From NCBI GenBank assembly GCA_902589965.1, contig CACIUX010000012.1:1-41287 (forward strand): a stretch of 41,287 nt of DNA, in the 5' to 3' direction. Below the pieces are notes generated by a model that saw only the letters and a program-made list of their open reading frames with translations, was not told the DNA's origin and did no database searches. This document shows positions 23,457 to 40,447 of the stretch, piece after piece. The first letter of the stretch is position 1, and each line of letters opens with the position of its first letter. Both the position numbers and the translations under genes were made by a program. The DNA is from an uncultured SAR86 cluster bacterium. GTDB taxonomy: Bacteria; Pseudomonadota; Gammaproteobacteria; Magnimaribacterales; AG-339-G14.

Positions 23457-23726
23457 TTAAGAATAATGACTATCTGTGTAAGGAAGAAGAGCAAGCTGTC
23501 TTGCTCTCTTGATAGCAGTTTCTAATTGCCTTTGATACTTTGCAGATGTTCCTGTAAGTCTTGCAGGAAGAATTTTCCCAGTTTCATTTATGAAGTCTTT
23601 TAAAAGGTTTACATCTTTATAATCAATCTGCTTGATACCGGCAGCAGTAAATCTGCATTTTCTCGATTGTTTAATTAAGGGCTCTAGACCAGTATTTTTC
23701 TTTCTCGTATCTTTTTTCCTTCTCAT
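23457..23726 (-). CDS. rpsR: 30S ribosomal protein S18
   Basis: 89 residues. It has the S18 core [31 protein letters not shown] and a C-terminal [14 protein letters not shown]. The Lys/Arg-rich N-terminus ([11 protein letters not shown]) is longer than in E. coli S18 (75). It binds as a dimer with S6 on the 30S platform. The ATG overlaps the rpsF TGA. Confidence 0.98.
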
Positions 23727-25266: not shown

Positions 25267-26636
25267 TGATTTGATATCTTTCTTGCAAGCTCTGAGGTCG
25301 TCCCTGCTCCCTGAGTTATGATCACTTCATTTCCAGCGGTCATATTTTCAAGTTTTTCAATTACCTCAGTATGATTTTGACAAAATACTACGTTTGAGCC
25401 ATTCTTTTTTAGAGCTTTAAATAGATCTTTGCCTTCATAACCTTTAATTTTCTTCTCGCTTGCGGGATAAATATCAAGCAAAAGAAGGTTTTCTATATTT
25501 AAAAGAGTTTTTATAAATTCATCAAAAAGGTCCTTGGTTCGTGTGTATCTATGCGGTTGAAAAACAACAATCTTTTTTTTGTTTTTCCATATTTCTGATG
25601 CTGTGTCATGAGAATATTTGATCTCTTTTGGATGATGTCCATAATCGTCAACAAGAGTAATCTTTTTTGAAAAGATATCATCAGAAATAATTTCAAAACG
25701 TCTTTCTATTGAGGAGCAAGATTTGAGCGATTTTTTTATAATGGAGACATCAATATCTTCCTGAATAGCTGCAATAATCGCAGAAGTTGCATTCATAACA
25801 TTATGTTCGCCGTGCATTGACATGGAGAAGCTATAATCTTTTTTAACGAAATTATCTTTCAGCTTAAAACTTGTTCCTCTGATGTTTTGTTCTATATCCT
25901 TGATTTGATAGTCGTTACTTTTATCCTTTCCGAAGGAAAATGAATTCCTCGGTATGTTTTTTATAATTTTTTTAACCGATTGATCATCTCCATTGGCAAT
26001 TAAGTAGCCTTGAAAAGGTAATGAAAGACAAAATTTTTTAAAAGACTTTTTTAGATTATTAAAGTCATTATCGTAGGTACCTAAATGATCGTTATCTATA
26101 TTTGTAACTAAAGCTTTCAGAGGTCTGAGATTTAAGAAAGATCCATCACTCTCATCAGCTTCCGCAATGATATGCTCACCAAGACCTAGTTTGGCATTAG
26201 ATTCAAAAGACTTTACTTTGCCTCCAATGATGTAAGTGGGATCTAAGCCTGCCTCGGTGAAAATATGAGCCATTATGCAGGTTACGGTAGTTTTTCCATG
26301 ACTTCCTGCAACCGCTATGCTATTTTTAAGCATCATAAGATTAGCCAACATCTCAGCTCTAGCAATAACTGGTATGCCTATAGAAATTGCTTTTTTAAGC
26401 TCAACATTTTTTTTTGATATTGCCGATGAAATCACTACAAGATCTTTTTTTAAGACATTTTTTTCTTTGTGGCCTTTAAAAATTTTAATTCCTAGATTTT
26501 TTAGTCTTTTTGTAACATTTGTATCCTCTAGATCACTCCCTGAGACAGAATAGTCTTGATTATGAAGAATTTCTGCAATTCCGCTCATACCTGCTCCACC
26601 GATACCAATTAGATGAATATTTTTTATGCTGGACAT
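25263..26636 (-). CDS. murC: UDP-N-acetylmuramate-L-alanine ligase
   Basis: 457 residues. The N-terminal Rossmann segment HLIGIGGAGMSGIAEIL is followed by the P-loop VAGSHGKTTVTCIMAH, ADESDGSFL, and a C-terminal VVFQPHRYTRTKDLFDEF and ITQGAGT. It adds the first amino acid (L-Ala) of the stem peptide. The ATG overlaps the murG TAA by one base and the stop overlaps ddl by 4 nt, a continuous coupled operon. Confidence 0.97.
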   Translation of the reverse strand: MSSIKNIHLIGIGGAGMSGIAEILHNQDYSVSGSDLEDTNVTKRLKNLGIKIFKGHKEKNVLKKDLVVISSAISKKNVELKKAISIGIPVIARAEMLANLMMLKNSIAVAGSHGKTTVTCIMAHIFTEAGLDPTYIIGGKVKSFESNAKLGLGEHIIAEADESDGSFLNLRPLKALVTNIDNDHLGTYDNDFNNLKKSFKKFCLSLPFQGYLIANGDDQSVKKIIKNIPRNSFSFGKDKSNDYQIKDIEQNIRGTSFKLKDNFVKKDYSFSMSMHGEHNVMNATSAIIAAIQEDIDVSIIKKSLKSCSSIERRFEIISDDIFSKKITLVDDYGHHPKEIKYSHDTASEIWKNKKKIVVFQPHRYTRTKDLFDEFIKTLLNIENLLLLDIYPASEKKIKGYEGKDLFKALKKNGSNVVFCQNHTEVIEKLENMTAGNEVIITQGAGTTSELARKISNQ

Positions 26637-27706
26637 TAGATATTTAAATTATCAATGATAATTTTCGAGGAGTTAGTGAATGAATTCTTATTTAGTTGCT
26701 CATAATAACTTTTTACAGAAGTATTATCTAAAATTGATTCTCTGAGATTTGATATCAAGTTATTAATATCAGAATCTTGTTGAAAAACCTTTCCAAATCC
26801 TCTTTCTTCAAAAAATTTTGCATTTAAAATTTGGTGATTATCAATTGAATTTGGAATTGGAATTATAAATGCTGATCTTCTAACCTTGATCAATTCTGAT
26901 ACTGTCAGCGCGCCCCCCCTGCAAATGACAACATCGCTCCATTCATATGCTTCTCTCATATCATCTATAAATTCGCTTATTGTGAACTGGTTATTTATAT
27001 TATTTTTCTTATAAGCTTCTTGAGTGATTTCTCTATGTTTTAATCCACACTGATGACGGATTTTCAAGCTGCTCCTATTAATTCCTCCAAGAACTTTTGG
27101 AACCAGATGATTTAAAAACTCTGAACCTTGGCTGCCTCCAATTATTAGAAGGTTGTTGAACTGATCAATATTTTTTTGTTTTAAACCTAAAAGTTCATCT
27201 CGAATAGGATTGCCACTATCAACAAGAAAATTGACTTTGGTTTTTTTGAAATAATTAGAAGCCTGGCCGAAGCCCAAAAATACTTTATCAAGATATTTTA
27301 ACTTTGAAAGAATCCTTATTGCAGATCCAGGTATTGAATTTTGCTCTTGTGCATAGATTGTTCTTAAAGGGAAAAATAAAGCGATCAATGAAGTGTATCC
27401 TCCAAAAACAATCATTTGATCATTCTGACTGGAGAAAACTCTATATTTGAAAAAAAATTTCAATCCAGAGCGAAATAGTTTTAGAACTGAAGAAAATTTC
27501 TTAATCAAGCCCTTTCCTCTGAAACCTACCAAATCATATTCTATAAATTTGATGCCAAGCTTTTTACATATATTTTTCTCAGGTCCTCTGGCTGTACCAA
27601 TCCAGATTATGGAGATATCTTTTTTTAATAAATCTCTCGCAATTTGCTCAGCAGGAAATACATGACCTCCTGTTCCTCCAGCAACTATGAAGATTTTTTT
27701 AGAAAT
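26636..27706 (-). CDS. murG: MurG GlcNAc transferase, apparent ATT start codon
   Basis: 356 residues when started at ATT 27706; E. coli MurG has 355. It makes lipid II from lipid I on the inner membrane. In this frame the N-terminus is SKKIFIVAGGTGGHVFPAEQ after the initiator, containing the essential GGTGGH UDP-binding loop; further blocks are LIIGGSQGSEFLN and VVICRGGALTVSELI. Between the in-frame TGA at about 27723 and GGTGGH there is no ATG, GTG or TTG; the first later one (TTG 27532) would delete 58 residues including GGTGGH. ATT is 4 nt behind a perfect AAGGAGG. The start overlaps the ftsW stop by 8 nt. Confidence 0.9.
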   Translation of the reverse strand: MSKKIFIVAGGTGGHVFPAEQIARDLLKKDISIIWIGTARGPEKNICKKLGIKFIEYDLVGFRGKGLIKKFSSVLKLFRSGLKFFFKYRVFSSQNDQMIVFGGYTSLIALFFPLRTIYAQEQNSIPGSAIRILSKLKYLDKVFLGFGQASNYFKKTKVNFLVDSGNPIRDELLGLKQKNIDQFNNLLIIGGSQGSEFLNHLVPKVLGGINRSSLKIRHQCGLKHREITQEAYKKNNINNQFTISEFIDDMREAYEWSDVVICRGGALTVSELIKVRRSAFIIPIPNSIDNHQILNAKFFEERGFGKVFQQDSDINNLISNLRESILDNTSVKSYYEQLNKNSFTNSSKIIIDNLNI

Positions 27707-28871
27707 TTTTCCTCCTTGATATCACTTTATGTCTATCTGATTCATTTAATTCAAAATATATTCTTTGAATCAGTGAAATCAAAATAAAGGTCAAAAATAA
27801 ATTGGAACCTCCGTAGCTCAAAAAAGGCAAGGTCAGCCCTTTTGTAGGAAGTAGTCCGATGGACACGCCGATATTGATAAAAACATGCAACCCAATCAAA
27901 GTACCAATGCCATATGCAATAAATGAATTAAACATTTGATTCATTTGTCTTGCTAAACGTCCAATCATAAAACATCTTATGACTAAAACTAGAAAAATAA
28001 AAATTAAAATTAATCCAAAAAAACTACCAAATTCCTCCAAAATAATTGAAAAAACAAAGTCAGTTTGAGCGTCTGGCAGTAAGTTTAATTTCAACCAACT
28101 TTCTCCATATCCAGTGCCGAACCAGTCACCTCTGCCAATAGCAGAAAAAGATCTTGTCAGTTGATATCCTCCTTCTTGGGCATTTTCCCATGGATTCATA
28201 AATGTAAGTATTCTTTGAAATCTCCAAGGAACTAAAAAAATCATCAAAATAAATGTAAAAAAACCTACCATGGAGATTGCAATAAAATGAACAATAGGCG
28301 CACCCGCGATAAACATGATTGTGAGGGTGACCAAAAAGATAATTGCTGAAGAACCTAAATCTGGTTGCAATAAAATTAAAGAAATAAGTGAAACCATTAT
28401 GAAAATGGGCTTCCAAAAACCTGTCCAATTTGATTTGAATTCTTCTTTTTTCCTGATACAAAAAGATGATACATAAATCAATAATGATAACTTGGCTAAT
28501 TCAGCGGGCTGGAAACTAAAACCAAGGAACCTTATCCACCTCTTTGCTCCGTTTATTTCTGGTGCAAGATTTGGCACTAAGAGTATCAACAAAAGAAAGA
28601 GCGATAAAAAAATAAGATATAAATCAATATTTCTCCATGTACTCATCTCAAACCTGAATATGAAGAAGAAAAGAAAGAAACCCACCATCAAATTAAATAT
28701 GTGCCTAATGGTTAACTCGTTAAATGAAATGCTCGAAACCATCAAGATTCCAAAGAAAGCTAAGAAAATAGATATTGTTATTGTTGTGAAATCGAAATTA
28801 TCAAAATTAATGTTCCGATCGTGACTTCCAAATAAAATTCTATTTACAAAGTTTTGCTTTCTAGCCAACAT
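27699..28871 (-). CDS. ftsW: Peptidoglycan glycosyltransferase FtsW
   Basis: 390 residues, SEDS family, about ten membrane helices. Conserved blocks are NGAKRWIRFLGFSFQPAELAK, QPDLGSSAIIFLVTL, GYQLTRSFSAIGRGDWFGTG and GLLPTKGLTLPFLSYGGSN. It polymerises septal glycan strands from lipid II with FtsI. The ATG at 28871 overlaps the murD stop by 11 nt. Its last codons carry the Shine-Dalgarno of murG. Confidence 0.97.
   Translation of the reverse strand: MLARKQNFVNRILFGSHDRNINFDNFDFTTITISIFLAFFGILMVSSISFNELTIRHIFNLMVGFFLFFFIFRFEMSTWRNIDLYLIFLSLFLLLILLVPNLAPEINGAKRWIRFLGFSFQPAELAKLSLLIYVSSFCIRKKEEFKSNWTGFWKPIFIMVSLISLILLQPDLGSSAIIFLVTLTIMFIAGAPIVHFIAISMVGFFTFILMIFLVPWRFQRILTFMNPWENAQEGGYQLTRSFSAIGRGDWFGTGYGESWLKLNLLPDAQTDFVFSIILEEFGSFFGLILIFIFLVLVIRCFMIGRLARQMNQMFNSFIAYGIGTLIGLHVFINIGVSIGLLPTKGLTLPFLSYGGSNLFLTFILISLIQRIYFELNESDRHKVISRRKNF
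27711..27717 (-). promoter_or_regulatory. Strong Shine-Dalgarno deciding the murG ATT start
   Basis: AAGGAGG on the minus strand, fully complementary to the 16S anti-Shine-Dalgarno, inside the last codons of ftsW. A 4-nt spacer (AAAA) separates it from ATT at 27706. It is one of the best ribosome sites in the window, which fits compensation for a weak initiation codon. Confidence 0.8.
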
Positions 28872-30063
28872 ATTTTTTGATTAATTCTTTAAACTTAGAC
28901 CCTCTTTCTTCATAATTTTGAAATTCATCAAAACTTGAACAACCGGGAGAAAATAAGACCAAATCATTTTTAGTTGAATAATTTATAGCCTCTTTCACAG
29001 CTTGAGCCATACTCTCAAGCACGATTGGATTTAACTCTTCTATTTCATTTGAAATCTTTTTTCTGTCCGCACCATAAACAAAAACTTTCTTAGTTTTTCT
29101 CTTAAGAACCTCCATAAGCGGCCTAAAACTTAGATCCTTTTTTAACCCCCCCATAATTAAAATAATTTTTTCATCTTTATATTTATTTATTGCAGCATTA
29201 AGTGAATGTGGATTGGTAGATTTAGAATCATTTATGATGGTGAGGTATTTATTTAAAGAAATATCTTCAAGGCGATGGGGAAGTGGATCAAAGGTAAGTA
29301 TTTTTTCCTCAATGGATTTTTTTTTAAGGCCTATGTGTAAAAGAATCCTTTTTACAGCTTCTTGATTATAAATTTCATGATCTGTGATCTCAGGCATAAT
29401 GAAATCTAAATCTAATCCTATGCCCTCAGGTCCAATTTTGAAGTTTGAGTTTTCAAATATCCTTTTTTTTATTTTTGTGTACTGTTGAAAAGAATCGTGA
29501 ACATCTAAATGATCAGGAGATATATTTAATAATACAGAAACTAAGCTTGATAAAGACTTTGTCCTTTCTATCTGAAAAGAAGATACTTCGATTACAAAAT
29601 AATCCAGTTGATCTTCAATATGATTAAGCACAGGAAAACCATTATTTCCTATACTTTTAACCTTAAGTTCCAAGGATTTCATGATATGTTGAAGCAAAGA
29701 TACTACAGATGTTTTTCCGTTTGTTCCTGTAACAAGAATTGATTTTCTAGCATGAACTTTTAAAAATAGATCTAAATCTGAAAGGATTTCAATGTTATGA
29801 GTGTTCAACTTTTTTACTATTTCATGACTGATATTAAATCCAGGACTCACATAACACGATCGAATCTCATCAAAAGCTATCTCCTTGAGATTAGAAATGA
29901 TTAGAGGATTTTTACTTTTTTTAAGTAATTCTGTTTTGCAAGGAGGATCATCTCTGGTATCAAAAATAATTGGCTCTTGTTCAAATTTTATTAAGTAATT
30001 AAAAAGAGATAAGCCTGTCTGACCAAGTCCTAAAATAAGTGATCGAGAAGTTTTTTTTGACAC
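28861..30063 (-). CDS. murD: UDP-N-acetylmuramoyl-L-alanine-D-glutamate ligase
   Basis: 400 residues from GTG 30063. It has the N-terminal Rossmann segment SLILGLGQTGLSLFNYL, P-loop LVTGTNGKTSVVSLLQH and C-terminal LFSPGCSSFDEFQNYEERG, all MurD hallmarks. It adds D-Glu to UDP-MurNAc-L-Ala. I prefer the GTG because it gives a normal-length N-terminus and lies 4 nt after the mraY stop; a TTG at 30096 would overlap mraY by 29 nt and add 11 residues with no MurD counterpart. Confidence 0.95.
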   Translation of the reverse strand: MSKKTSRSLILGLGQTGLSLFNYLIKFEQEPIIFDTRDDPPCKTELLKKSKNPLIISNLKEIAFDEIRSCYVSPGFNISHEIVKKLNTHNIEILSDLDLFLKVHARKSILVTGTNGKTSVVSLLQHIMKSLELKVKSIGNNGFPVLNHIEDQLDYFVIEVSSFQIERTKSLSSLVSVLLNISPDHLDVHDSFQQYTKIKKRIFENSNFKIGPEGIGLDLDFIMPEITDHEIYNQEAVKRILLHIGLKKKSIEEKILTFDPLPHRLEDISLNKYLTIINDSKSTNPHSLNAAINKYKDEKIILIMGGLKKDLSFRPLMEVLKRKTKKVFVYGADRKKISNEIEELNPIVLESMAQAVKEAINYSTKNDLVLFSPGCSSFDEFQNYEERGSKFKELIKKYVG

Positions 30064-30067
30064 TTGG

Positions 30068-31150
30068 CTACCTAAGTCTGAGGGTAGCAAATCCAATAAG
30101 AATTAGAATTAATGTAATTATCCAGAATCTCACAATAATCTTTGGTTCTGCCCATCCTGATAATTCAAAATGGTGATGCAAAGGAGCCATTTTGAATACC
30201 CTTTTACCAGTTAATTTGTATGAAGTAACCTGAATCATGACAGATAACGTCTCGGCAACAAAAACTCCTGCCATTATCGCAAATACTATTTCTTGTCTTA
30301 TCATAACCGCAATTGCTCCTAGTGCTGCCCCTAAAGAAAGAGAGCCTACATCTCCCATAAAGACTTGTGCAGGATAAGTATTGAACCAAAGAAATCCAAT
30401 TCCAGAACCTACAATAGCTCCACAAAATACAAGCATTTCACCTGATAGTGGTAAATATGGAATATTGAGATAATCTGAAATGATTATGTTTCCAGATACA
30501 TATCCAAGAACCCCTAAAGCAGCTGCAATCATTACTGAAGGCATTATTGCAAGACCATCCAAACCATCTGTGAGATTCACCGCGCTACTTGAGCCAACAA
30601 TTACAAAATAAGAAAAGAAAATAAAAAATAAACCTAACGGCAAAGAAAAATCTTTGAAAAAAGGAATTATTAAGCTCGTCTCAAGGGGATTAGTGGAATA
30701 TGTATAAAAGATTATTATGCCGATAAAAGCTGATAGAGACTGCCAAAAAAACTTCTGCCTACTTGTAAGTCCATTGCTTGACTGAGTTTTTAGTTTAGTT
30801 AAATCATCTATCCAGCCAATTACCCCAAATGAAACCGTCATAAATAATACCAACCACAGGTACTTATTTGATAAGTCTCCCCAACAAAAAACTGAAAATA
30901 CTACAGCTGCTAAGATCAGCAGCCCTCCCATTGTTGGAGTTCCTTCTTTAACAAGATGTCTTTCGGGCCCTTCTTTTCTAATGTATTGATTAAACCTTTC
31001 CATTTTCAAAAAATTAATGAACCAATTTCCAAAAGATAGGCAAAAAATCAATGAAGTTAGAGTGGCTAAAATTGCTCTAAAAGTAAGATAATTGAAAATC
31101 CTCAAGGGACCATAGCTTTCAGCTAGAATTTCTAAAATAGGTAAAAACAT
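30068..31150 (-). CDS. mraY: Phospho-N-acetylmuramoyl-pentapeptide-transferase
   Basis: 360 residues, as in E. coli, ten membrane helices. Hallmarks are TPTMGGLLILAAV, the catalytic IDDLTKL and NLTDGLDGLAIMP, MGDVGSLSLGAALG and the cytoplasmic PLHHHFELSGW. It transfers phospho-MurNAc-pentapeptide to undecaprenyl phosphate to give lipid I. The ATG overlaps the murF stop by one base. Confidence 0.98.
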   Translation of the reverse strand: MFLPILEILAESYGPLRIFNYLTFRAILATLTSLIFCLSFGNWFINFLKMERFNQYIRKEGPERHLVKEGTPTMGGLLILAAVVFSVFCWGDLSNKYLWLVLFMTVSFGVIGWIDDLTKLKTQSSNGLTSRQKFFWQSLSAFIGIIIFYTYSTNPLETSLIIPFFKDFSLPLGLFFIFFSYFVIVGSSSAVNLTDGLDGLAIMPSVMIAAALGVLGYVSGNIIISDYLNIPYLPLSGEMLVFCGAIVGSGIGFLWFNTYPAQVFMGDVGSLSLGAALGAIAVMIRQEIVFAIMAGVFVAETLSVMIQVTSYKLTGKRVFKMAPLHHHFELSGWAEPKIIVRFWIITLILILIGFATLRLR

Positions 31151-32388
31151 TATTTAAAAATATTCATGCAGTCTTCTATTTTAACTGATCTAGATGCCTT
31201 AAATAACATGGCAGTATTTTTACTCAATAAAGATCCGATCTTTTCTTCTGCATTAGCAATATTTATTTTGACTACATTCTCCTTCGTGAGTTCAAATTTG
31301 GAGTTAAATAAAAAAACGTAATCAAATCTCTCACAGGCTTCATCGATTATTTTTTTCATTTCTTGCTGAAAGTCTTTACCTAGCTCTTTCATATCACCAA
31401 TAACACAAATTTTATTTTCCTTATCAGTAGAATCTAGGACTCTAAATGCCTCTTTAAATGAATCAGGATTTGCATTGTAAGTATCATCAATTATCAAAAC
31501 ACCCTTTGAATTATAGCCTTGCTCTGTCCTAGATGGGACAACAACATCTTTTGATAAATTATATATTTGATCAAAAGAGATATTTTCTATGCCTAAACTT
31601 ACTAGAATAGCTTCTACACACTTACTGTTTGATTTTTTTGCATTTAATCCATCACTAGAAAAGGATCTCATCTTTTTATCATGAGACTTTGCATGAAACT
31701 CACTGAGATGAGCATTAATATCTGGGAAGATGCAAGTTCCTTGAAGTAAAACATTTTTAAAAATATCAGATTTCTCTTGTGCAACTCCCTCAAGATTTAT
31801 TAATTTTTCTAGGTGAGCTTTTCCAATTGATGTGATGACTCCTACTTCGGGCTGCAATATTGACGACAATTCATTTATTTCACCAAAGTTATTCGTTCCT
31901 ATCTCAAAAATTCCAAATTTATGATGTTTTTTTAATTCTAGGAGACTAAAGCATAATCCGTAAAAATTATTCCAGTTTCCTGGTGATACATAAATTTGAG
32001 ATGGATCAAATTTGTTGGATAAAAGAGAGCTCAATAGCAATTTAGTCGAAGTTTTACCATTACTTCCAGTGATGCCTACAACTTTACCTTCAAACTTTTT
32101 TCTTTGATATTTAGCTAAAAAAGATAAACATTCATGAGTAGAATTAACGCCTAAAATTTTTTCATCTTGAGGATGATTTTTTTCAGAAATAATAAAAGAG
32201 GCTCCCCTATCCAGTGCTTCATCAATAAAATCATGCCCGTTGAAATTAGGCCCCTTTAAAGCAAGAAAACAATCACCTTTTGAAATTTTTCTAGAGTCTG
32301 TAACTATTTTTGAGGATACAAATTCTTTCGTAGGTTTCTCAAGGTTTAATTTAGCGGCTAATATTTGGTTTGAAAATTCAAATAGCAT
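31150..32388 (-). CDS. murF: UDP-MurNAc-tripeptide-D-Ala-D-Ala ligase
   Basis: 412 residues, rather short for MurF (E. coli 452). N-terminal FVSSKIVTDSRKISKGDCFLA and ALKGPNFNGHDFI, P-loop VGITGSNGKTSTKLLL, and the adenine-binding IIDDTYNANPDSFKEA are all MurF-type. It attaches the D-Ala-D-Ala made by Ddl. The start overlaps murE by 11 nt and the stop overlaps mraY by 1 nt. Confidence 0.96.
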   Translation of the reverse strand: MLFEFSNQILAAKLNLEKPTKEFVSSKIVTDSRKISKGDCFLALKGPNFNGHDFIDEALDRGASFIISEKNHPQDEKILGVNSTHECLSFLAKYQRKKFEGKVVGITGSNGKTSTKLLLSSLLSNKFDPSQIYVSPGNWNNFYGLCFSLLELKKHHKFGIFEIGTNNFGEINELSSILQPEVGVITSIGKAHLEKLINLEGVAQEKSDIFKNVLLQGTCIFPDINAHLSEFHAKSHDKKMRSFSSDGLNAKKSNSKCVEAILVSLGIENISFDQIYNLSKDVVVPSRTEQGYNSKGVLIIDDTYNANPDSFKEAFRVLDSTDKENKICVIGDMKELGKDFQQEMKKIIDEACERFDYVFLFNSKFELTKENVVKINIANAEEKIGSLLSKNTAMLFKASRSVKIEDCMNIFK

Positions 32389-33817
32389 TCTTAAACCTCA
32401 TCACCATTTCAAAATCACTAAAATCTTTTCTTAATCCATTCTCAAATTCTTGATAATTTTCATTTCCCTTGCCTGCAATTAATAATGCGGAACCGGGTTT
32501 ACTATTAACAAGTGATTCAAGTGATTCAAGAATAGCTTCTTTTCTATCAAAAATTACTTTTATATTCTTTGATGAACACTCTGATAATATATCTTCAACA
32601 ATTGTTTCAGGATCCTCACTCCTAGGATTATCATTGGTAACGAAAACCTGATCAGCTAAATTTTCTGCTATTTTTCCCATCTTTGACCTTTTAAATCTAT
32701 CCCTTTCACCGCCACATCCAAATAGACAAATTAAATTTCCAGAATGTGTGCTTCTTAAAGATTTTAAACTTGCTTCCAATGCATCAGGAGTATGTGCAAA
32801 ATCTATAAAAACATCTCTTCCATCAAAATCTATTTTTTGATTTCTTCCTTCAGGCAGGCTAAGGTCAAAAATATCTATGCTTGATAAATCAACGTCTTGG
32901 TTTGCAACCTTAAATAAAAGAAGAGCACAAACCAGATTTGAGAAATAATGATCTCCTTGGAAGTTAACATTAATTTTTTTCGGCAAGATATCTTCTGAAT
33001 CCAATAAAAATTTATTTGATGAGCTTTTATGTATGAATACATCAGCATCTTTATTATGAAATGAATATGAATAAGAATTTTTGTATTTTTGCTTAAGTTT
33101 TGCTCCTAAATAATTGTCTTCATTAAATACATATCCTTCTGACGAAAAATCATCAGAATCAAAAAAAGATTCTTTTATATCAGAATACTTCTCCATATTG
33201 CCATGGTAATCAAGATGGTCCTCAGAGAAACTTGTTAATCCTTTAAATTTGATTTCGATATCTCCGATCCTTTTTTGATGTATTGCATGAGATGAAACCT
33301 CTAGCAAACAATTCTCAATATTGTGTTCACTTGATATTTCTAAAAACCTATAAAGTTTAAAAATATCAGGAGTTGTCATATTTGAAGATCGTAACTCGAG
33401 GCCTGAACCTCCATTTTCAATAGAATTAAAAAAAGATACCTTCATATTTAGCTGTTCATGCAATTGTTTGAGAAAATGAATCGTGCTGGTCTTACCATTT
33501 GTACCAGTTATACCAAATATCTTTTTAACTTGATTAAACACATAGGCCTTATTTGCCAGATGTACTAGTTTTTCTTCTAACCCAGATACATGAATTATGT
33601 TTCTATTATCATTGGCATGGTGTATGCCAGTAAGCACGGCTAATGCTCCGTTATCAAAGGCATGATCTATATATTTATTTCCATCTCTTTTGGAAGAATT
33701 TTTCAATGCAACAAAAATATCTCCTGGATCTATGTCATTTGAATTGATGCATAATTTTTTAAATTGAATATCACTTTTTAATTTACTACCGTCTAATAAA
33801 TTCTTTAGATTTTTCAT
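32378..33817 (-). CDS. murE: UDP-MurNAc-tripeptide synthetase (meso-DAP adding)
   Basis: 479 residues. P-loop IFGITGTNGKTSTIHFL, then FTSFSEDHLDYHGNMEKY, and the substrate-specificity motif DNPR in FVTNDNPRSEDPE, which marks meso-diaminopimelate-adding MurE and therefore a Gram-negative-type peptidoglycan. Also VFIDFAHTPDALEASL and LIAGKGNENYQ. It overlaps the ftsI stop by 4 nt. Confidence 0.97.
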   Translation of the reverse strand: MKNLKNLLDGSKLKSDIQFKKLCINSNDIDPGDIFVALKNSSKRDGNKYIDHAFDNGALAVLTGIHHANDNRNIIHVSGLEEKLVHLANKAYVFNQVKKIFGITGTNGKTSTIHFLKQLHEQLNMKVSFFNSIENGGSGLELRSSNMTTPDIFKLYRFLEISSEHNIENCLLEVSSHAIHQKRIGDIEIKFKGLTSFSEDHLDYHGNMEKYSDIKESFFDSDDFSSEGYVFNEDNYLGAKLKQKYKNSYSYSFHNKDADVFIHKSSSNKFLLDSEDILPKKINVNFQGDHYFSNLVCALLLFKVANQDVDLSSIDIFDLSLPEGRNQKIDFDGRDVFIDFAHTPDALEASLKSLRSTHSGNLICLFGCGGERDRFKRSKMGKIAENLADQVFVTNDNPRSEDPETIVEDILSECSSKNIKVIFDRKEAILESLESLVNSKPGSALLIAGKGNENYQEFENGLRKDFSDFEMVMRFKNAI

Positions 33818-35442
33818 GAGGAAGCAAAAATTGATTTAAAAACATTAGAAAAGATTGGAGCTGCAACATCGGAGCCGCCTGAAACATCATTTTTTGGTTC
33901 TTGGACCATTATTGCTAGCAAATATCTCTCACTATTTTTTTCTATGAATCCTACAAATAGAGCATTTATAGAATCTTCATCATATCCTTGCTGTTTAGAA
34001 ATGAGGCTTGTCCCTGTTTTCCCACCAACAACTCCATCTTTTACTTTGGCTAGTTTTCCAGTCCCATTATTCACAGTATGGATTAAAATATTTTTTATCT
34101 TATCAGTGGTTTCCTTTTTAAGAATTCTTCTTCTTATTTCATTACTTTCTGATGAAATAATCTTTAGATTTGCTTCGATACCGTCGTTTAAAATTCCAGT
34201 ATATGCTTTTGCAATATGAAGCAAAGTTGTCTGGAGACCATACCCGTAACATAAACTAACTAAACCTCTTAAAGAAATATTCTGTACTCCAGGCAAAAAT
34301 CCCTCTCTATGATTTAAAAACATCTCACTAAAGAACTCTCCGATTCCAAAAGAACGTATTCCAGATATTACTCTTGATTTGTTCATTTGAGAGCAAATTT
34401 TTACAGTGCCTACATTGCTTGATTTAGCTATGACTTCGCTTACAGAAAGAATTCCATAATTTTTAAAATCCTCTGTTCTGTAATCCTCAAATTCAACCCA
34501 TCCAGGATTAGTATCAATCAAGGTATCTTCGTTAATTAATTCATCGTCTAGAGCTAAAGAAATACTAAGAGGTTTTAAAACAGAACCAGGTTCCAAAAGA
34601 GAAATCGATGCCTTGTTTGTCACTAAAGAAATATCTGATAAAGATTTTCTATCGTTGGGATTAAAGCTAGGATAATTAGTTATTGCTAAAATCTCTTCAG
34701 AATCTAGATCAATCATTATTGCTGAAGCAGTGCTCGCATTGTTTTCGATTACAGCTCTTTTCAATTCATCAAAAACAATAAATTGATAATCTGAATCAAT
34801 AGATAACTTAATTAAGTCGCCATCCTTCTGAGGGACAATAACTTCCTCAATAACTTTTCCGTTACCATCTCTTTTAAGATCTATTCTTCCATCTGAGCTA
34901 TCAAGACTTTTCTGAAAGCTAAGCTCAATTCCTTGAAGACCATCATTATTTATATCAGTGATCCCAATTAGTTGAGAAAAAGCTTCTCCTTCGGGATAAT
35001 TTCTGTAGAACCTTTCATCAAAAACAAGTCCTTGAATTTTTTCTTTTTTAAGCGCCTCTGCTTTTTCCCTATTTACTTTTTTAGAAATTTGAATGAATTT
35101 AAGCCTCTGATTAGATGATCTTTCTCTTAAATTTTGCTCCTCGATATTTAATAAATCGGAAATAAATTTTATCTCGTCTGGTTTGTACGAAAAATAATTA
35201 AGATCTATTCCAATATCGTAAAAAATAATATCTTCAGCCAATATTCGATCGTTTCTATCGACTATCTTTCCTCGTGATGACTTTATGACTTTACTTTGCG
35301 AAATTCGATTTTCAATTTTATCAAATGAAAATTCTGCCTCAGTTATTTGGAAAAATACTAATCTTACAAAGAGAAGTGAAAAAAGTACGGGAAGAAAAAA
35401 CCAGAGAACAAGTTCTCTGGTTTTTTCCGTTTGATGGCTCAA
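33814..35442 (-). CDS. ftsI: Septal transpeptidase FtsI (PBP3)
   Basis: 542 residues. One N-terminal membrane helix (about 12-31), a pedestal domain starting SSRGKIVDRNDRILAED, and a transpeptidase domain with SxxK in LEPGSVLKPLSI, SxN in AKSSNVGT and KTG in VGGKTGTS. It crosslinks septal peptidoglycan with FtsW. The start is TTG at 35442, 6 nt after the ftsZ stop, with no good Shine-Dalgarno. It follows ftsZ instead of ftsL, which is unusual. The first codons encode a perfect terminator-like hairpin that also codes for the start of the membrane helix. Confidence 0.96.
   Translation of the reverse strand: MSHQTEKTRELVLWFFLPVLFSLLFVRLVFFQITEAEFSFDKIENRISQSKVIKSSRGKIVDRNDRILAEDIIFYDIGIDLNYFSYKPDEIKFISDLLNIEEQNLRERSSNQRLKFIQISKKVNREKAEALKKEKIQGLVFDERFYRNYPEGEAFSQLIGITDINNDGLQGIELSFQKSLDSSDGRIDLKRDGNGKVIEEVIVPQKDGDLIKLSIDSDYQFIVFDELKRAVIENNASTASAIMIDLDSEEILAITNYPSFNPNDRKSLSDISLVTNKASISLLEPGSVLKPLSISLALDDELINEDTLIDTNPGWVEFEDYRTEDFKNYGILSVSEVIAKSSNVGTVKICSQMNKSRVISGIRSFGIGEFFSEMFLNHREGFLPGVQNISLRGLVSLCYGYGLQTTLLHIAKAYTGILNDGIEANLKIISSESNEIRRRILKKETTDKIKNILIHTVNNGTGKLAKVKDGVVGGKTGTSLISKQQGYDEDSINALFVGFIEKNSERYLLAIMVQEPKNDVSGGSDVAAPIFSNVFKSIFASS
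35394..35427 (-). terminator. Intrinsic-terminator-like hairpin inside the 5' end of ftsI
   Basis: A perfect 16-bp inverted repeat: AAAAAACCAGAGAAC and GTTCTCTGGTTTTTT around an AA loop, closed by one more G-C pair. In either direction this gives a 9-bp stem (5 G-C pairs) flanked by A6 and followed by U6, the form of a bidirectional intrinsic terminator. It begins 22 nt after the ftsZ stop and covers about codons 6-16 of ftsI. Ribosomes starting at the ftsI TTG could disrupt it, so it may act as an attenuator. Confidence 0.8.
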
Positions 35443-35448
35443 AGAAAT

Positions 35449-36576
35449 CTAATCTATTTGTTTTTTAACGAACGATGGAATATCTAGATATTCTGAATCC
35501 ATTAAATCACTAGACGAAACTTTTTTAACTTCCCTAGAAGAATGAGAAATATCTGGTTTAGGAAGGATGGGTTCAACCGATTCAAATTCAAAAGTATTTT
35601 TTGGCATCTTTTTAGATGCACTTCCGCCAAGGCCAGTTGCTACTATTGTCACCTTTATGTCTGCTCCCATAGAGTCATCAAACGCCACACCATGAATGAT
35701 TGTTGCATCTTGAGCAGCAAATTCTCTTACTAAGGCAAGAACTTCCTCAATTTCACCAGTTTTCATATCTGGCCCAGCAGTAATATTGACAAGAACTCCT
35801 TTTGCGTTTTCTAGATTGATATCTTCTAAGAGTGGACTTCCAACAGCTGCAGAAGCTGCCTCTTTTGCTCTGCTTGTCCCATTTGCAATTCCCGTTCCCA
35901 TCATAGCCGTTCCTTTTTCTGACATTACTGTTTTAACATCTTGAAAATCAACATTAACAAGTCCGGTTTGTGTGATGATGTCTGATATACCTCTAACAGC
36001 TCCTAATAGAACATCATTTGCTTGCTTGAAGGCATCAAGAAGACTATGTTCTCGCCCAAGAACTTCCAATAATTTTTGGTTAGGGATTGCGATTAGTGAA
36101 TCAACTTCATCAGTAAGTTCTTTTAAGCCAACATCCGCAATTTGATCTCGCATTTCAAGCTCTAATGGCTTGGTAACTACTGCAACTGTCAAAGCACCTA
36201 TTTCTTTAGCAGCTCTGGCAACAATTGGGGCTGCACCAGTTCCTGTTCCGCCACCCATTCCTGCTGCAACAAAAACCATATCTGAGCCCTCAAGCAAGGT
36301 TTTAATTCTTTCAAGATCATCAAGAGCAGCATCTCTTCCAACCTCAGGTTTCCCTCCTGCTCCAAGACCGTTCGAAATACCGGTTCCAAGAGTAATTTTT
36401 AATTCTGCTAAATTGGTATCAAGCGCTTGCTCATCTGTATTAGCACAAATCATTTGAACGCCTTCGATGCCACTTTCAACCATATGGTTGACTGCGTTTC
36501 CTCCAGCTCCACCTACTCCAACTACTCTTATAAGAGCAGATGATTTAGTTTCATTTTCTACAACGGTCCAGTTCAT
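35449..36576 (-). CDS. ftsZ: Cell division GTPase FtsZ
   Basis: 375 residues. The tubulin signature GGGTGTG is in VFVAAGMGGGTGTGAAP, with N-terminal VVGVGGAGGNAVNHM and a short linker to the C-terminal peptide EYLDIPSFVKKQID that binds FtsA and ZipA. It polymerises into the Z ring. The ATG at 36576 has an excellent AAGGAGG. It lies 18 nt after ftsA. Unlike the standard order, it is followed by ftsI rather than lpxC. Confidence 0.99.
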   Translation of the reverse strand: MNWTVVENETKSSALIRVVGVGGAGGNAVNHMVESGIEGVQMICANTDEQALDTNLAELKITLGTGISNGLGAGGKPEVGRDAALDDLERIKTLLEGSDMVFVAAGMGGGTGTGAAPIVARAAKEIGALTVAVVTKPLELEMRDQIADVGLKELTDEVDSLIAIPNQKLLEVLGREHSLLDAFKQANDVLLGAVRGISDIITQTGLVNVDFQDVKTVMSEKGTAMMGTGIANGTSRAKEAASAAVGSPLLEDINLENAKGVLVNITAGPDMKTGEIEEVLALVREFAAQDATIIHGVAFDDSMGADIKVTIVATGLGGSASKKMPKNTFEFESVEPILPKPDISHSSREVKKVSSSDLMDSEYLDIPSFVKKQID

Positions 36577-36594
36577 AGTCCCTCCTTATTTAAA

Positions 36595-37824
36595 TTAGAA
36601 ATTGTTTTGGATCCATCTAAAAGCTTTGTTAAAAATGTTCTTATCTTTCATGAACAGATAGTTCATATGATCTTCTTCTTGTGATTTCTGGCTATATAAG
36701 ATCAAACCTACAACAGTTGCATATATTGGATTCCTTAATATATCGCTCAATCCTATCAATCCTGATGGCGAACCAATACGAACAGGAGCATTAAAAACTT
36801 CTTCTGCTAATTGAGATACTCCTTCCATTCTGGATGTTCCACCCGTGATTACAATCCCGGCGGGAATATTATTTTCTAAAGAAGATAAGTTAAGTTTTTG
36901 TTTAATTAAGCCAAAAATATCTAAATACCTTTGCTCAATTACACTGGCTAGAGCCATTCTTGAGAAAATTTTATTTTTTCTTCCTGCCATGCCTGGAACC
37001 TCAATTGTTTCATTTTCATGAATTATCGAACTTGAAGCACAGCCATACTTCTTCTTAAGTTCTTCTGCTTGCATACTTGGGGTTTGAAGAGCTCTAGCAA
37101 TGTCTTTAGTAATATGATCACCTGAAGTTGGAATATTGGCAGTATGACTTATTGCTCCATTTTGAAAAACTGCAACGTCTGAAGTTCCGCCGCCCATGTC
37201 AATTAAACAGGTTCCCAACTCTTTTTCATCTTCTGATAGGACGGAGTAACTTGACGCTAGTTGCTCCAAAACAAATCCTTCAACAGTAATACCACAAGCT
37301 TTCATGCAGGAGGATATGTTTTGAGCAGAGTTCCTGTTACAGGTGACTAGATGAACTTTGGTCTCCAGTCTGACGCCAGCCATTCCAAGAGGTTCTTTAA
37401 TACCATTTTGTTGATCAATAATATAGTCTCTTGGAAGAACATGAAGCAATTGAGAGTCATCTGGAATAGCATATGCTTGTGCGGCAGTGATGACTCTATC
37501 AACATCACTAACTTTGACTTTTTTATCTTTAATTCCTACAACACCTTCAGAATTTAAACCATTGATATGACCTCCGCTTATACCTACAAAAGCTGAAGTA
37601 ACTTGTTTACCAGACATCAATTCTGCATCATTTACCGCGGATTCTATTGCGGATACAGTTGATTCAATATCAACAATCACACCGTTTTTTAAACCTTGGG
37701 AAGTTTGGCTTCCTAAGCCGATAACTCGTAATTCGTGATCAACATATTCGGCGATTAGACACACGACTTTCGAGGTGCCTATGTCAATACCTACTCTGAT
37801 GTTATTTGATCCGTTGCTGGCCAT
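36595..37824 (-). CDS. ftsA: Cell division protein FtsA
   Basis: 409 residues from ATG 37824. Actin-like ATPase with VGIDIGTSKVVCLIAE, phosphate-2 loop LIDMGGGTSDVAVF, adenosine motif IVITGGTSRMEGV, and the C-terminal amphipathic membrane-targeting helix NKAFRWIQNNF. It tethers FtsZ filaments to the membrane. The ATG is one base after the ftsQ stop; a TTG at 37842 in the same frame would add six residues overlapping ftsQ and is less likely. Confidence 0.98.
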   Translation of the reverse strand: MASNGSNNIRVGIDIGTSKVVCLIAEYVDHELRVIGLGSQTSQGLKNGVIVDIESTVSAIESAVNDAELMSGKQVTSAFVGISGGHINGLNSEGVVGIKDKKVKVSDVDRVITAAQAYAIPDDSQLLHVLPRDYIIDQQNGIKEPLGMAGVRLETKVHLVTCNRNSAQNISSCMKACGITVEGFVLEQLASSYSVLSEDEKELGTCLIDMGGGTSDVAVFQNGAISHTANIPTSGDHITKDIARALQTPSMQAEELKKKYGCASSSIIHENETIEVPGMAGRKNKIFSRMALASVIEQRYLDIFGLIKQKLNLSSLENNIPAGIVITGGTSRMEGVSQLAEEVFNAPVRIGSPSGLIGLSDILRNPIYATVVGLILYSQKSQEEDHMNYLFMKDKNIFNKAFRWIQNNF

Positions 37825-37825
37825 A

Positions 37826-38377
37826 TTAATCTCTAAACCCAATTGCTCCTTTGTTTTGATACCTTAAATCTAAATATGAAAAGGTATCTTTTATGTTGTT
37901 AAAGTATTCGCTCTTGAGAAATGTTTTAAGGTTTTCTAATTGATTTTCTATTTTTGATTTATTCATGTGAAACCTTAAGCCAGAGTTATCCTCTAAGGTC
38001 ATTAAATCAAAATCTTCAATTAGAATTCTATTTAGAACCAAGTTAGACCCTTTCAAAATTTGATTGAGTTCAAAAAAATACCTTAAGACAAAATCAATAT
38101 TATTTCTGTTTGCTTCAATATTGACTAACTTCAAATTTTCTTTGGTTTTAAATTTGAGGAGGCGACCAGATTGGGTCAGTATCTGGTCTTTTCCCCAAAA
38201 AACAAGCGGTTGAAATTCTTTCACGTGCAATCTTTTCATTGGCCAAGAATTGACTTCCTTAGATGATTCAACAAAGTTAGGATTATCTTTTGAAAATAAA
38301 GGTTTAGGATCTTCAAAAACTTCGGATAAAACAAAGGTTGAAGAAAATATCATTATAATCAAAGTTAAGAATTTCAC
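37826..38377 (-). CDS. ftsQ: Reduced FtsQ-like division protein lacking most of the POTRA domain
   Basis: 183 residues against 276 in E. coli. An N-terminal hydrophobic stretch (about 2-18) is the membrane anchor or signal. Residues about 45-183 match the FtsQ beta domain: PMKRLHVKEFQPLVFWG, LVLNRILIEDFDL and the terminal YLDLRYQNKGAIGF, which corresponds to the FtsQ DLRY strand that binds FtsB. Only about 25 residues separate the two, so the POTRA domain is essentially gone. It lies directly before ftsA, the standard ftsQ position. The start is GTG (38377) with GGAG 7 nt upstream, overlapping ftsL by 4 nt. Confidence 0.8.
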   Translation of the reverse strand: MKFLTLIIMIFSSTFVLSEVFEDPKPLFSKDNPNFVESSKEVNSWPMKRLHVKEFQPLVFWGKDQILTQSGRLLKFKTKENLKLVNIEANRNNIDFVLRYFFELNQILKGSNLVLNRILIEDFDLMTLEDNSGLRFHMNKSKIENQLENLKTFLKSEYFNNIKDTFSYLDLRYQNKGAIGFRD

Positions 38378-38652
38378 TTTTCTGCTCCTTGAATCAAAAC
38401 AACGGATTCAGGCAAAATCATTCCGTATTCGTCAACCGTTTTTTCTTTTACTGAATTGTGAGAAGTTAGATTTAATATCTTATTCTTGAGATAAACTGAT
38501 TCCTCATCTAGTTTTGACTTATAGTCGTTTAAAAGATATTTTTCTGAGACTAATTGCTTGTAACTAGCATTCTTATTCAACACTAAGTAGGAACTAAAAA
38601 AAGTAGTAATCAGAGATCCTAAAATAAATATCAATATCATTTGATTAAACAT
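38374..38652 (-). CDS. ftsL: Cell division protein FtsL
   Basis: 92 residues. One N-terminal membrane helix (about 4-25) followed by a periplasmic coiled coil (about 32-70) with the typical late-divisome organisation and a short tail ESVVLIQ. It pairs with FtsB and FtsQ. Sequence conservation in FtsL is low, so the call rests mainly on size, topology and position after rsmH (8-nt overlap). Confidence 0.85.
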   Translation of the reverse strand: MFNQMILIFILGSLITTFFSSYLVLNKNASYKQLVSEKYLLNDYKSKLDEESVYLKNKILNLTSHNSVKEKTVDEYGMILPESVVLIQGAEK

Positions 38653-39499
38653 TTTTTATCGCAATTCTCATTATTGCGCTCCTTGATCTCGGATTAGACT
38701 TAATTTCATTAATTGTTGGCTTAATAGGCTTTCCTTGCTTTTTTAGATTAAGATTTTTTGCTTCTTCTGATCTAAGAAAGTTTTTAGCTATTCTGTCTTC
38801 TATGGAATGAAAGCTTATGATGATTAATTTTCCATTTTGCTTGAGAAGGCAAGCTGCTGATTTAAATCCATTGATCATCTCTTCAATTTCATTGTTTATA
38901 TGCATTCTAATTGCTCTGAATACATTAGTTGCTGGATGACGCTTTTGTGAACTGCTATATTTCTGAATAAATAAAGAAAGCTGTGCCGTGCTTTTAAACT
39001 TGGTCTTTTTTCTTGATTCAACAATTTTCCTGGCATAAAACCTAGATTTTCGCTCCTCGCCTAAATGAAATAACACGTCACTTATTTCTTTCTCTGTTGC
39101 AGTATTTATCCATTGCTCTGCTGTGATTTCCTCTTCTTTATTCATTCTCATATCAAGAGGGCCGTCCTTTTGAAAGCTAAATCCTCTTTCTGGATCATCT
39201 AGTTGCATGGAAGAATTCCCTAGATCAAAAAAGATACCATCTAGTCTTATATCTAAACTTTCAATTTTTGAAAAATTTAGATTTTTAAAATGAAATCTTT
39301 TATCTTTTATTTTTTGTGAATACGAGACAGTTTCTTTGTCTCTGTCTATTGCGATTAATCGGCCATCATCGTTAAGGTTTTCTAAAATCTTTTTTGAATG
39401 TCCCCCTAAGCCAAAAGTACAATCTAAATAAGTGCCGGCAGGATCATGAACTAAATTTTTAATAGTTTCGTTGATCATTACTGGCTGATGAGTGAACAT
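38645..39499 (-). CDS. rsmH: 16S rRNA (cytosine-1402-N4)-methyltransferase RsmH (MraW)
   Basis: 284 residues. N-terminal HQPVMINETIKNLV, SAM-binding LDCTFGLGGHSKKIL, GIFFDLGNSSMQLDDPERGF, RAIRMHINNEIEEM and C-terminal IISFHSIEDRIAKNFL are diagnostic. It methylates N4 of C1402 in 16S rRNA; RsmI, encoded 1 kb upstream, modifies the 2'-O of the same nucleotide. The ATG is 4 nt after the mraZ stop. Confidence 0.98.
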   Translation of the reverse strand: MFTHQPVMINETIKNLVHDPAGTYLDCTFGLGGHSKKILENLNDDGRLIAIDRDKETVSYSQKIKDKRFHFKNLNFSKIESLDIRLDGIFFDLGNSSMQLDDPERGFSFQKDGPLDMRMNKEEEITAEQWINTATEKEISDVLFHLGEERKSRFYARKIVESRKKTKFKSTAQLSLFIQKYSSSQKRHPATNVFRAIRMHINNEIEEMINGFKSAACLLKQNGKLIIISFHSIEDRIAKNFLRSEEAKNLNLKKQGKPIKPTINEIKSNPRSRSAIMRIAIKNV

Positions 39500-39503
39500 G
39501 ATG

Positions 39504-39983
39504 CTAAAAAGGGATCTCCTGGACGTTAGAAGGTAAGTCGATATCTAGTTTTTCACCTTGAATTTGTTGACCTTTCTCTTTTGCAAGCCAATTTTTTTCA
39601 TTCCATACTTCAAATTTCTGACCCATACCAATCAAAGATACTTTTTCTTTAACTTTTAATTGGGCGTAATCTCTTAAGCTTTGAGGAATAAGTATTTGCA
39701 TCCGATCATTGACTTCAAAATCAATTAAATTTGCATATCCAAGAAAATTCCACTGAATAGATCTAATTTTTGAATCTAGGCCTGATAAGTTTTCAAAAGC
39801 TTTCGATATGGTTTTCCATAAACTGCCTGGATAGATTCTTAAGGAAGGATATTGTGGGTCCCTAGTTATGACCAAAGAACCCTCTGAAACTTCTTTTAAA
39901 GCTTCTTTATACTTTGCTGGCATTGCAATTCGTCCTTTAGAATCCAATGCCAAACTACTGTATCCATAAAGTCCTATAGCCAT
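39504..39983 (-). CDS. mraZ: Transcriptional regulator MraZ
   Basis: 159 residues. Two AbrB-like MraZ repeats: LDSKGRIAMPAKYKEAL (about 14-30) and DRMQILIPQSLRDYAQL (about 95-112), each with the DxxGR/DxxQR-type motif. MraZ forms ring oligomers that bind direct repeats upstream of its own gene and control the dcw cluster. ATG at 39983 is taken as start; a TTG just before it would add one residue. Four 10-bp-phased GTG repeats lie upstream as expected targets. Confidence 0.96.
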   Translation of the reverse strand: MAIGLYGYSSLALDSKGRIAMPAKYKEALKEVSEGSLVITRDPQYPSLRIYPGSLWKTISKAFENLSGLDSKIRSIQWNFLGYANLIDFEVNDRMQILIPQSLRDYAQLKVKEKVSLIGMGQKFEVWNEKNWLAKEKGQQIQGEKLDIDLPSNVQEIPF

Positions 39984-40001
39984 CAAACAAGACCCCTTTT
40001 A

Positions 40002-40036
40002 CACACATAGATACACAAATGTGCACTTCAGCACAC
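40002..40036 (-). promoter_or_regulatory. Putative MraZ operator: four direct repeats at 10-bp period
   Basis: On the minus strand GTGTG (40036-40032), GTGCA (40026-40022), GTGTA (40016-40012) and GTGTG (40006-40002) are separated by exactly 5 bp. MraZ in E. coli and other bacteria binds G-rich pentamers spaced by 5 bp, so spacing and location fit, although the pentamers are GTGNN rather than TGGGN. A fifth in-phase GGGGT is at 39996-39992. Confidence 0.75.
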
Positions 40037-40063
40037 TTTAGACATTTGTATAATCACTGTCAA
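40035..40063 (-). promoter_or_regulatory. Probable mraZ (dcw) promoter
   Basis: A perfect TTGACA (40063-40058) followed after 17 bp by TAAAGT (40040-40035), a four-of-six match to the -10 consensus. The -10 overlaps the first GTG repeat, so MraZ binding would repress. This would be the main promoter of the dcw cluster; I saw no equally good one downstream before rpsF. Confidence 0.6.
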
Positions 40064-40109
40064 GAGGTTTAGTCCCAAAAGATAAGGGTTTTAAAGATAT
40101 TTATTATGT

Positions 40110-40440
40110 GAGCTGACCTATAAGCCGGGTTCTGTAATTAGTAATCATTCCTCTGGGATTTATGTTGCCATAAACCTCTAGCAACCTACCCTGACCTAAT
40201 GCGAGAAACATTAACAGGTCTCTATTTGGTCTTGCTCCTGATGGGGTTTGCCAACGACTTTTGTTACCAAAAGTCTGGTGCGCTCTTACCGCACCTTTTC
40301 ACCCTTACCTTTTAACACAAGGCGGTTTATTTTCTGTTGCACTATCCGTTACTTCACAGCACCCAGACGTTATCTGGCATCATTCTCTATGGAGCCCGGA
40401 CTTTCCTCTATCTATTTGACAGCGATTACCCGGTCAGCTC
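40110..40440 (-). ncRNA. rnpB: RNase P RNA (type A)
   Basis: About 331 nt. The 5' GAGCTGACC and 3' GGTCAGCTC form a perfect P1 stem. Universally conserved pieces are present in order: GAGGAAAGTCCGGGCTCC near the 5' end, GTGCAACAGAAAATAAACCG, AAGGTAAGGGTGAAAAGG with GTGCGGTAAGAGCGCACC, GGAGCAAGACCAAATAG, and ACAGAACCCGGCTTAT near the 3' end. It is the catalytic RNA that matures tRNA 5' ends. Exact termini are uncertain by a few bases. It lies between rsmI and mraZ as in other gammaproteobacteria; no clear terminator separates it from mraZ. Confidence 0.97.
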
Positions 40441-40447
40441 GGCGATC

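Follow-up and report, generated by a model that had tools for sequence, protein, structure and literature searches.

In gammaproteobacteria, the division and cell wall (dcw) cluster canonically reads mraZ-rsmH-ftsL-ftsI-murE...ddl-ftsQ-ftsA-ftsZ-lpxC, which puts ftsZ close to the end of some 15 genes; in Escherichia coli, internal promoters aid its transcription. Here we describe this cluster in a 41,287-nucleotide stretch of DNA from an uncultured SAR86 cluster bacterium (contig CACIUX010000012.1 of assembly GCA_902589965.1; hereafter, the window), which is one complete contig from a 1.12-Mb assembly that is 86% complete. The locus shares with the canonical cluster its genes, its strand, mraZ at the head, and the order from rsmH to ftsL and from ftsI to ddl. 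It differs in that ftsQ-ftsA-ftsZ (ftsQAZ) stands between ftsL and ftsI, lpxC-secA lies elsewhere, and in the window's lineage ddl is followed by rpsF-rpsR-rplI-dnaB. We conclude that the rearrangement is true and old, and that it represents a variant form of a familiar cluster, not a system of a new kind.

The dcw order has been described as strongly conserved in rod-shaped bacteria (PMC7761207, PMC5089854). The closest described parallel for a promoter-near ftsZ is the Mollicute minimal cluster, mraZ-mraW-MG_223-ftsZ, where ftsZ likewise lies behind MraZ repeats of the AAAGTG type, according to the part of PMC8475190 consulted. In contrast to SAR86, which relocated ftsZ and kept all mur genes, the wall genes are gone in that cluster. 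We found no report on division gene order in SAR86 in the mainly open literature, and the titles and abstract openings of the dcw papers found do not mention SAR86.

Results and discussion

On the minus strand of the window, open reading frames (ORFs) and hidden Markov models give the order rsmI-rnpB-mraZ-rsmH-ftsL-type ORF-ftsQ-ftsA-ftsZ-ftsI, followed by murE-murF-mraY-murD-ftsW-murG-murC-ddl-rpsF. The mraZ, rsmH, fts, and mur genes are clustered on this single strand, as expected of a dcw cluster, but ftsQAZ is not found in its canonical place after ddl and before lpxC. An earlier reading made from the letters alone (the sequence-only reading) had claimed both this order and the ddl-rpsF junction; profiles, ORFs, and relatives confirm them, and ddl adjoins rpsF in relatives wherever that end was read. 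All features of the window given below are on the minus strand. The relocated ftsZ (35449..36576; TIGR00065) carries the Shine-Dalgarno sequence AAGGAGG and is preceded by ftsA (36595..37842; TIGR01174), a 183-amino-acid (aa) ftsQ that retains only the beta domain (37826..38377; weak PRK10775 match, AlphaFold model with matches to FtsQ in the PDB), and a 92-aa ftsL-type ORF (38374..38652), which matches no family, is assigned from its position and its relatives, and keeps the C-terminal GMxxP motif. Six base pairs behind ftsZ lies ftsI, encoding a PBP3-type transpeptidase (33814..35442; PF00905, PF03717). The gaps between successive genes from mraZ to ftsI are 4, -8, -4, -17, 18, and 6 bases, so this part of the cluster looks like one transcription unit.

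The same arrangement recurs throughout the closest relatives, whose loci were found by tblastn with window proteins as queries. We refer to the window's own family as f1, with genera g1 (the window's), g2, g3, and g4, and to three further families of the same taxonomic order as f2, f3, and f4. The FtsZ sequences of named SAR86 cluster genomes (for example, AG-337-I17, AG-453-B11, and AH-736-O06, names that we take to denote single-cell genomes) are 97 to 100% identical to that of the window. The loci of all 20 other f1 genomes read rsmI-mraZ-rsmH-...-ftsA-ftsZ-ftsI, although two of them (L054, L058) stop before rpsF at a contig end, and those of all six f2 genomes have the f1 order, finishing ddl-rpsF-rpsR-rplI-dnaB. 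In both families ftsA-ftsZ lies between ftsL and ftsI, mostly with ftsQ included. Searches across the taxonomic order agree: in the 106 f1, f2, and f3 genomes with mraZ and ftsZ listed on one contig, the distance between the two genes is 2.3 to 3.1 kb in f1 (29/29, window included), 3.2 to 3.4 kb in f2 (28/28), and 69 to 319 bases in f3 (49/49). Outside this count are eight genomes with ftsZ but without MraZ among the matches listed (four f1, two f2, two f3), G030, with the genes on two contigs, and f4, for which MraZ was not found.

The new order might be suspected of being an assembly artefact, as the window is a single contig of a fragmented, 86% complete assembly and a local inversion is seen close to a contig end in one relative (L058). 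We reject this as extremely improbable: the same order stands in 26 other genomes, one-contig and three-contig assemblies among them, and in 57 by mraZ-ftsZ distance, counting the window's. The sequence-only reading had named two things that would speak against it, close relatives with the standard order, as a sign of misassembly, and a second ftsQAZ copy after ddl elsewhere in the genome; the f1 and f2 relatives read all share the rearranged order, and the window's genome gave one ftsZ match and no second. Among 134 genomes of the taxonomic order with an FtsZ match, two ftsZ rows occur only in G076 and G081, both as partial pieces. The inverted segment of L058 (G003), mraY-murF-murE after ftsI at a contig end, is perhaps an amplification chimera.

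Direction is given by the surrounding class. Loci were obtained for 51 of the 76 non-SAR86 genomes with an FtsZ match, picked for long contigs, and ftsA directly precedes ftsZ in 48 of them (the exceptions being G183, G198, and G184); over all named loci outside SAR86 the count is 62 of 65, with ftsZ alone in three. Relative to this order, the arrangement common to the window and its close relatives is a block move from the tail of the cluster to its head. In G183 (L190), ftsZ-lpxC has no ftsA visible upstream, and the FtsA family search gave only weaker matches.

The order change was mapped onto a 12-protein tree (4,752 columns; 25 of 41 SAR86 genomes and 18 outgroups, every second one with all 12 genes), which supports f1 with f2 and f3 with f4, each at a Shimodaira-Hasegawa-like approximate likelihood ratio of 100, and permits a single origin for each order. 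As letter composition differs among the rows, we make no claim on the deep placement of SAR86. Given the canonical order in the outgroups, the simplest history would be one ftsQAZ move in the f1-f2 ancestor and one ftsZ move in the f3-f4 ancestor. In a tree of ftsA and ftsZ every family stays together and f1 joins f2 (support of 99). That tree also places G153, a long-branched outgroup row, among the SAR86 families, so ftsA and ftsZ alone do not confirm a single SAR86 group. The long branches and the position of G153 are also what might be cited for horizontal acquisition of the head block from a lineage that already had this order. We consider such a transfer very unlikely, because none of the 51 class loci offers a donor with the order and f1 and f2 form one group in both trees. 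The gene orders and their distribution over the tree are established, and the moves themselves were clean.

The old tail junction appears to have been lost earlier. We did not find lpxC in the window's own 86% complete assembly; loss of lpxC from SAR86 is nonetheless rejected, as the window's genome is incomplete and the gene is present in 54 of the 61 genomes of the relatives search. It sits beside secA in all nine SAR86 loci read (L212 to L220). Wherever lpxC and ftsZ share a contig (20 of 20 genomes), they are 137 to 174 kb apart and on opposite strands, so the ancestor of the taxonomic order probably lacked an intact ftsZ-lpxC junction. Distance and strand together suggest an old inversion breakpoint at that junction.

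Elsewhere, ftsZ has moved without its partners. All eight f3 loci read mraZ-ftsZ-rsmH-...-ftsI-murE...ddl-...-ftsA-rpsF (with the head block of G047 in the opposite orientation to the remainder), and all six f4 loci read rsmI-ftsZ-rsmH-ftsI...ddl-...-ftsA-rpsF, with no MraZ match; ftsZ is thus alone and adjoins rsmH in 14 of 14. Two outgroup genomes show comparable orders, mraZ-rsmH-ftsZ-orf105-ftsI in G198 and mraZ-rsmH-orf90-ftsI-ftsZ-murE in G184, and in the tails of both (L251 and L252 for the pair) ddl-...-ftsA-lpxC runs on with ftsZ gone and the gap closed. The G184 order is a family trait: ftsI-ftsZ-murE occurs in 11 of 12 loci of that family, and the twelfth, in G241, holds ftsZ alone. 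In two families related to it, ftsA precedes ftsZ in all four loci read. G241 has two ftsZ rows on different contigs.

These ftsZ-only moves resemble the ftsQAZ move in that ftsZ was removed from the tail and now occupies one of the first four gaps. They differ in that ftsZ traveled by itself and in the slot it took, which was before rsmH in f3 and f4, between ftsI and murE in G184's family, and between rsmH and the ftsL-type ORF in G198. We also surveyed the rsmH-ftsZ distance in 84 class genomes, 73 of them outside SAR86 with both genes and 52 of these with both on one contig. The distance is canonical (12.4 to 20.8 kb) in 49, below 6 kb in two (G198 and G184), and broken in one (G186); no mid-cluster ftsZ occurs among these 52. 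We conclude that ftsZ has gone from tail to head on about four separate occasions in a single class, each time into the first four gaps. The four landed in four different gaps; with 12 equally likely gaps, all would fall in the first four with a probability of about 0.012, a rough figure from a small number of events.

Why ftsZ should repeatedly come to the head is a matter of interpretation. The explanation that we prefer, although it is unproved, is selection for a promoter-proximal ftsZ. In the lineage of the window, the ftsQAZ block would have moved once, within the genome, from the tail of the cluster after ddl into the ftsL-ftsI gap in the f1-f2 ancestor, and been inherited vertically from there, whereas the f3-f4 ancestor would independently have shifted only ftsZ, into the position ahead of rsmH. 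At the DNA level, the head may have gained a duplicate first, with the tail copy lost afterwards. On a transcript starting between rnpB and mraZ, ftsZ would then be read early, before all mur genes; it would no longer rely on promoters buried near the cluster end and would be transcribed whatever happens downstream. A higher need for FtsZ might be met by this position together with the gene's own strong ribosome site. Its leader is AAGGAGG-GACT-ATG, and no such sequence precedes the listed start of ftsI, 6 bases behind, so protein amounts can differ on one transcript. We infer transcription as one unit, a higher yield of FtsZ, and selection as the reason from this arrangement, and give the explanation as a whole about an even chance. 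The sequence-only reading had spoken of FtsZ and FtsA dosage placed ahead of the Mur enzymes; operon position leaves dosage unchanged, but transcript level and order may change.

The main rival is that the moves were neutral by-products of genome reduction and drift, with head slots the least harmed by insertions. It fits the small assemblies concerned (0.8 to 1.8 Mb in SAR86, many of them incomplete, and 1.1 Mb for G184) and the erosion of other components, FtsQ and MraZ, within the same taxonomic order. The concentration of all four moves in the first four gaps, a different gap each time, and the short gene spacing kept in the window speak against neutrality, and we hold it to be a serious but less probable account. 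Several points also weigh against selection for a promoter-proximal ftsZ. Four events are a small sample; the cluster of G198 is split, with ftsA far from ftsZ; 21 of the 73 class genomes cannot be judged, with rsmH and ftsZ on different contigs; the promoter scan was weak overall (41 sites versus a shuffle mean of 68.5); and the cluster head may simply tolerate insertions better. Furthermore, the G198 locus has 45% GC and is not AT-rich, so streamlining is no uniform background to the moves.

The region from which such a transcript would start lies between rnpB, which the sequence-only reading overlooked, and mraZ. The RNase P RNA gene (class A; 40105..40441; Rfam RF00010, 323 bits) is directly upstream of the cluster. 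A promoter-like site, TTGACA-17-TAAAGT (40035..40063; 10/12 in a consensus scan), is kept within the genus with small changes. It is followed by four 10-bp repeats with GTG in phase (40001..40040), a candidate MraZ operator. The window thus has an mraZ gene with direct repeats at a period of about 10 bp in its leader. Three to four strict GTG copies precede mraZ in 8 of 8 g1, 6 of 6 f2, and 5 of 8 f3 genomes, and 13 other f1 and three f3 genomes have two strict copies beside degenerate ones. Two strict copies are reached by 1 to 9% of random-sequence trials, and four by none of 300 randomized sequences with matching dinucleotide composition.

The sequence-only reading had proposed that the move served to bring ftsQAZ directly under MraZ. 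The promoter-like site and the repeats give this some substance, as does the Mollicute system, in which MraZ is described as repressing ftsZ at direct AAAGTG[T/G] repeats, with more ftsZ transcript when MraZ is missing (PMC8475190, consulted in part). The same repeats, however, are carried by relatives that never moved the genes: outgroup leaders have three to four copies in 24 of 40 cases, or 22 of 38 when G184 and G198 are set aside. Moreover, E. coli MraZ acts on a cluster in the usual order. Finally, MraZ was matched in 115 of 151 genomes of the taxonomic order, none of them f4, with no match in at least 12 f4 genomes in that search, and f4 leaders have one GTG copy (6/6 tested), the chance level. 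Since f4 keeps ftsZ at the head with neither a MraZ match nor the repeats, MraZ control is not the general reason for the moves, and we reject it as such; as the purpose of the ftsQAZ move we regard it as unlikely. To judge from these leaders, this cluster is likely under MraZ control, but that control is old, and its apparent loss in f4 left the head position intact. In two of the f4 loci (L080 to L085, lacking both MraZ match and repeat array) where it was checked, ftsZ begins about 20 to 30 bases behind rnpB.

FtsQ is normally counted as an essential division protein, and its fate in these genomes leaves unsupported one further claim of the sequence-only reading, that no genes were lost in the move. 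The window's ftsQ product matches its profile weakly and only over positions 114 to 256. In its structural model, a helix is followed by 34 residues of very low confidence (residues 18 to 51; predicted local distance difference test below 50), after which the strands of the FtsQ/DivIB C-terminal beta domain occupy residues 57 to 181; the best PDB matches are FtsQ chains (6h9o, 8hhf, 8bh1; E values of 1.8e-8 to 3.5e-8). The model has no POTRA domain after the membrane anchor, and we conclude from it that this domain has been lost. The ORF before ftsA is 218 to 220 aa long in f2, 204 to 216 in f3, and 205 to 208 in f4, except in G045; within f1 it measures 183 aa in g1, 165 to 166 in g3, and 155 to 164 in g4, and is absent in g2. 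In all four g2 loci read (L059 to L062), nothing but a 68- to 74-aa ftsL-type ORF stands between rsmH and ftsA. A profile of f1 and f2 FtsQ matched none of seven g2 genomes, two of which are at least 93% complete (G009, at 97%, is a single contig), and matched 12 of 12 other f1 and f2 genomes used as controls. The profile matches just one of three f3/f4 controls, so absence outside f1 and f2 cannot be read from it. For G045 (f4), the loss is suggested by synteny at the ftsQ slot, where just 72 bases separate ddl and ftsA (L050 9699-9770) and no FtsQ is found. On the basis of these loci, two independent losses of FtsQ are well supported but not proved. In some f2 members (L033, L034, L036), a lipobox-like LLASC or LLAGC replaces the plain membrane anchor at the N terminus, and their FtsQ may be a lipoprotein.

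The partners of FtsQ change with it. In the window, ftsB (15288..15581; PF04977, no NCBIfam match at 1e-10) keeps the C-terminal FtsQ-contact segment, as in its genus. In g2 the FtsB ORF stops before the ARxELGLIKxGE segment of other genomes (5 of 5 read, L236 to L240 among the g2 loci), while in G009 and G012 the gene still stands between ORFs that we take to be eno-like and ispD-like. Where FtsB was read, all 17 genomes with FtsQ carry the segment, counting two f2 genomes and a variant form in G059 that falls outside the search pattern, whereas none of the 6 without FtsQ does. By visual judgement, the C-terminal motif of FtsL is likewise kept in all 36 genomes with FtsQ and in none of the 5 that lack it, and G045 has likewise lost the C-terminal ends of both FtsB and FtsL. 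PF04977 was unmatched in 10 of 61 genomes, including the g2 genomes G018 and G021 as well as G045; most of the others are incomplete assemblies. In alignments with solved divisome structures, the segment corresponds to the C-terminal portion of FtsB, and in E. coli FtsB residues E65, E69, R72, and F84 sit in the FtsQ contact, according to the part of PMC10076392 consulted.

Our interpretation, which we think somewhat more probable than its negation, is that some SAR86 divide without FtsQ. The whole membrane-distal contact module, consisting of FtsQ and the C-terminal ends of FtsB and FtsL that meet it, would have been lost in one piece on two or more occasions. Of the FtsQBL activator of FtsWI, only the transmembrane coiled coil of FtsB and FtsL would then remain, and the POTRA-less FtsQ of g1 would be an intermediate after the ftsQAZ move. 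The division genes kept in that case would be those for FtsZ, FtsA, FtsW, FtsI, FtsB, and FtsL. We found no relevant report on FtsQ absence in the mainly open literature.

The mraZ gene (39504..39986, likely ATG start at 39983) scores 84.8 bits against TIGR00242, below the cut-off of 98.35, and above the cut-off of PF02381; rsmH (mraW; 38645..39499) matches TIGR00006, and rsmI is named from PF00590 and its position. The murE-murF-mraY-murD-ftsW-murG-murC-ddl genes (24349..33817) keep their usual order and were assigned with NCBIfam, or Pfam for ddl: murE, murF, and mraY were matched, murD and murC score above their cut-offs, and ftsW and murG are best matches below the curated cut-off. In the place after ddl normally held by ftsQ-ftsA-ftsZ-lpxC is rpsF (23723..24283; PF01250). 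The murG gene (26636-27706) apparently starts with ATT, as the frame of the conserved GGTGGH N terminus has no ATG, GTG, or TTG. An AGGAGG site just upstream of the in-frame ATT is kept in every one of the seven loci read from the genus, the window's included, and translation from ATT gives a product that fits the MurG profile along almost all of its length.

Implications

The weight of the finding lies in its recurrence in about four lineages and in the nearby loss of FtsQ. About four tail-to-head moves of ftsZ in one class amount to a natural experiment on the conservation of dcw order. There is also a practical consequence for field measurements. A 2026 metatranscriptome study, consulted in part, used the ratio of ftsZ to RNase P transcripts as a growth index, with SAR86 included and RNase P taken from Rfam (PMC13349992). 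All eight SAR86 loci checked have ftsZ on the strand of rnpB and downstream of it, at distances from about 20 bases (f4) to 3.7 kb (f2). With ftsZ so close behind rnpB, the two transcripts may not be independent. If the paired loss of FtsQ and its contact segments is true, the minimal form of FtsQBL needed to switch on septal wall synthesis becomes testable.

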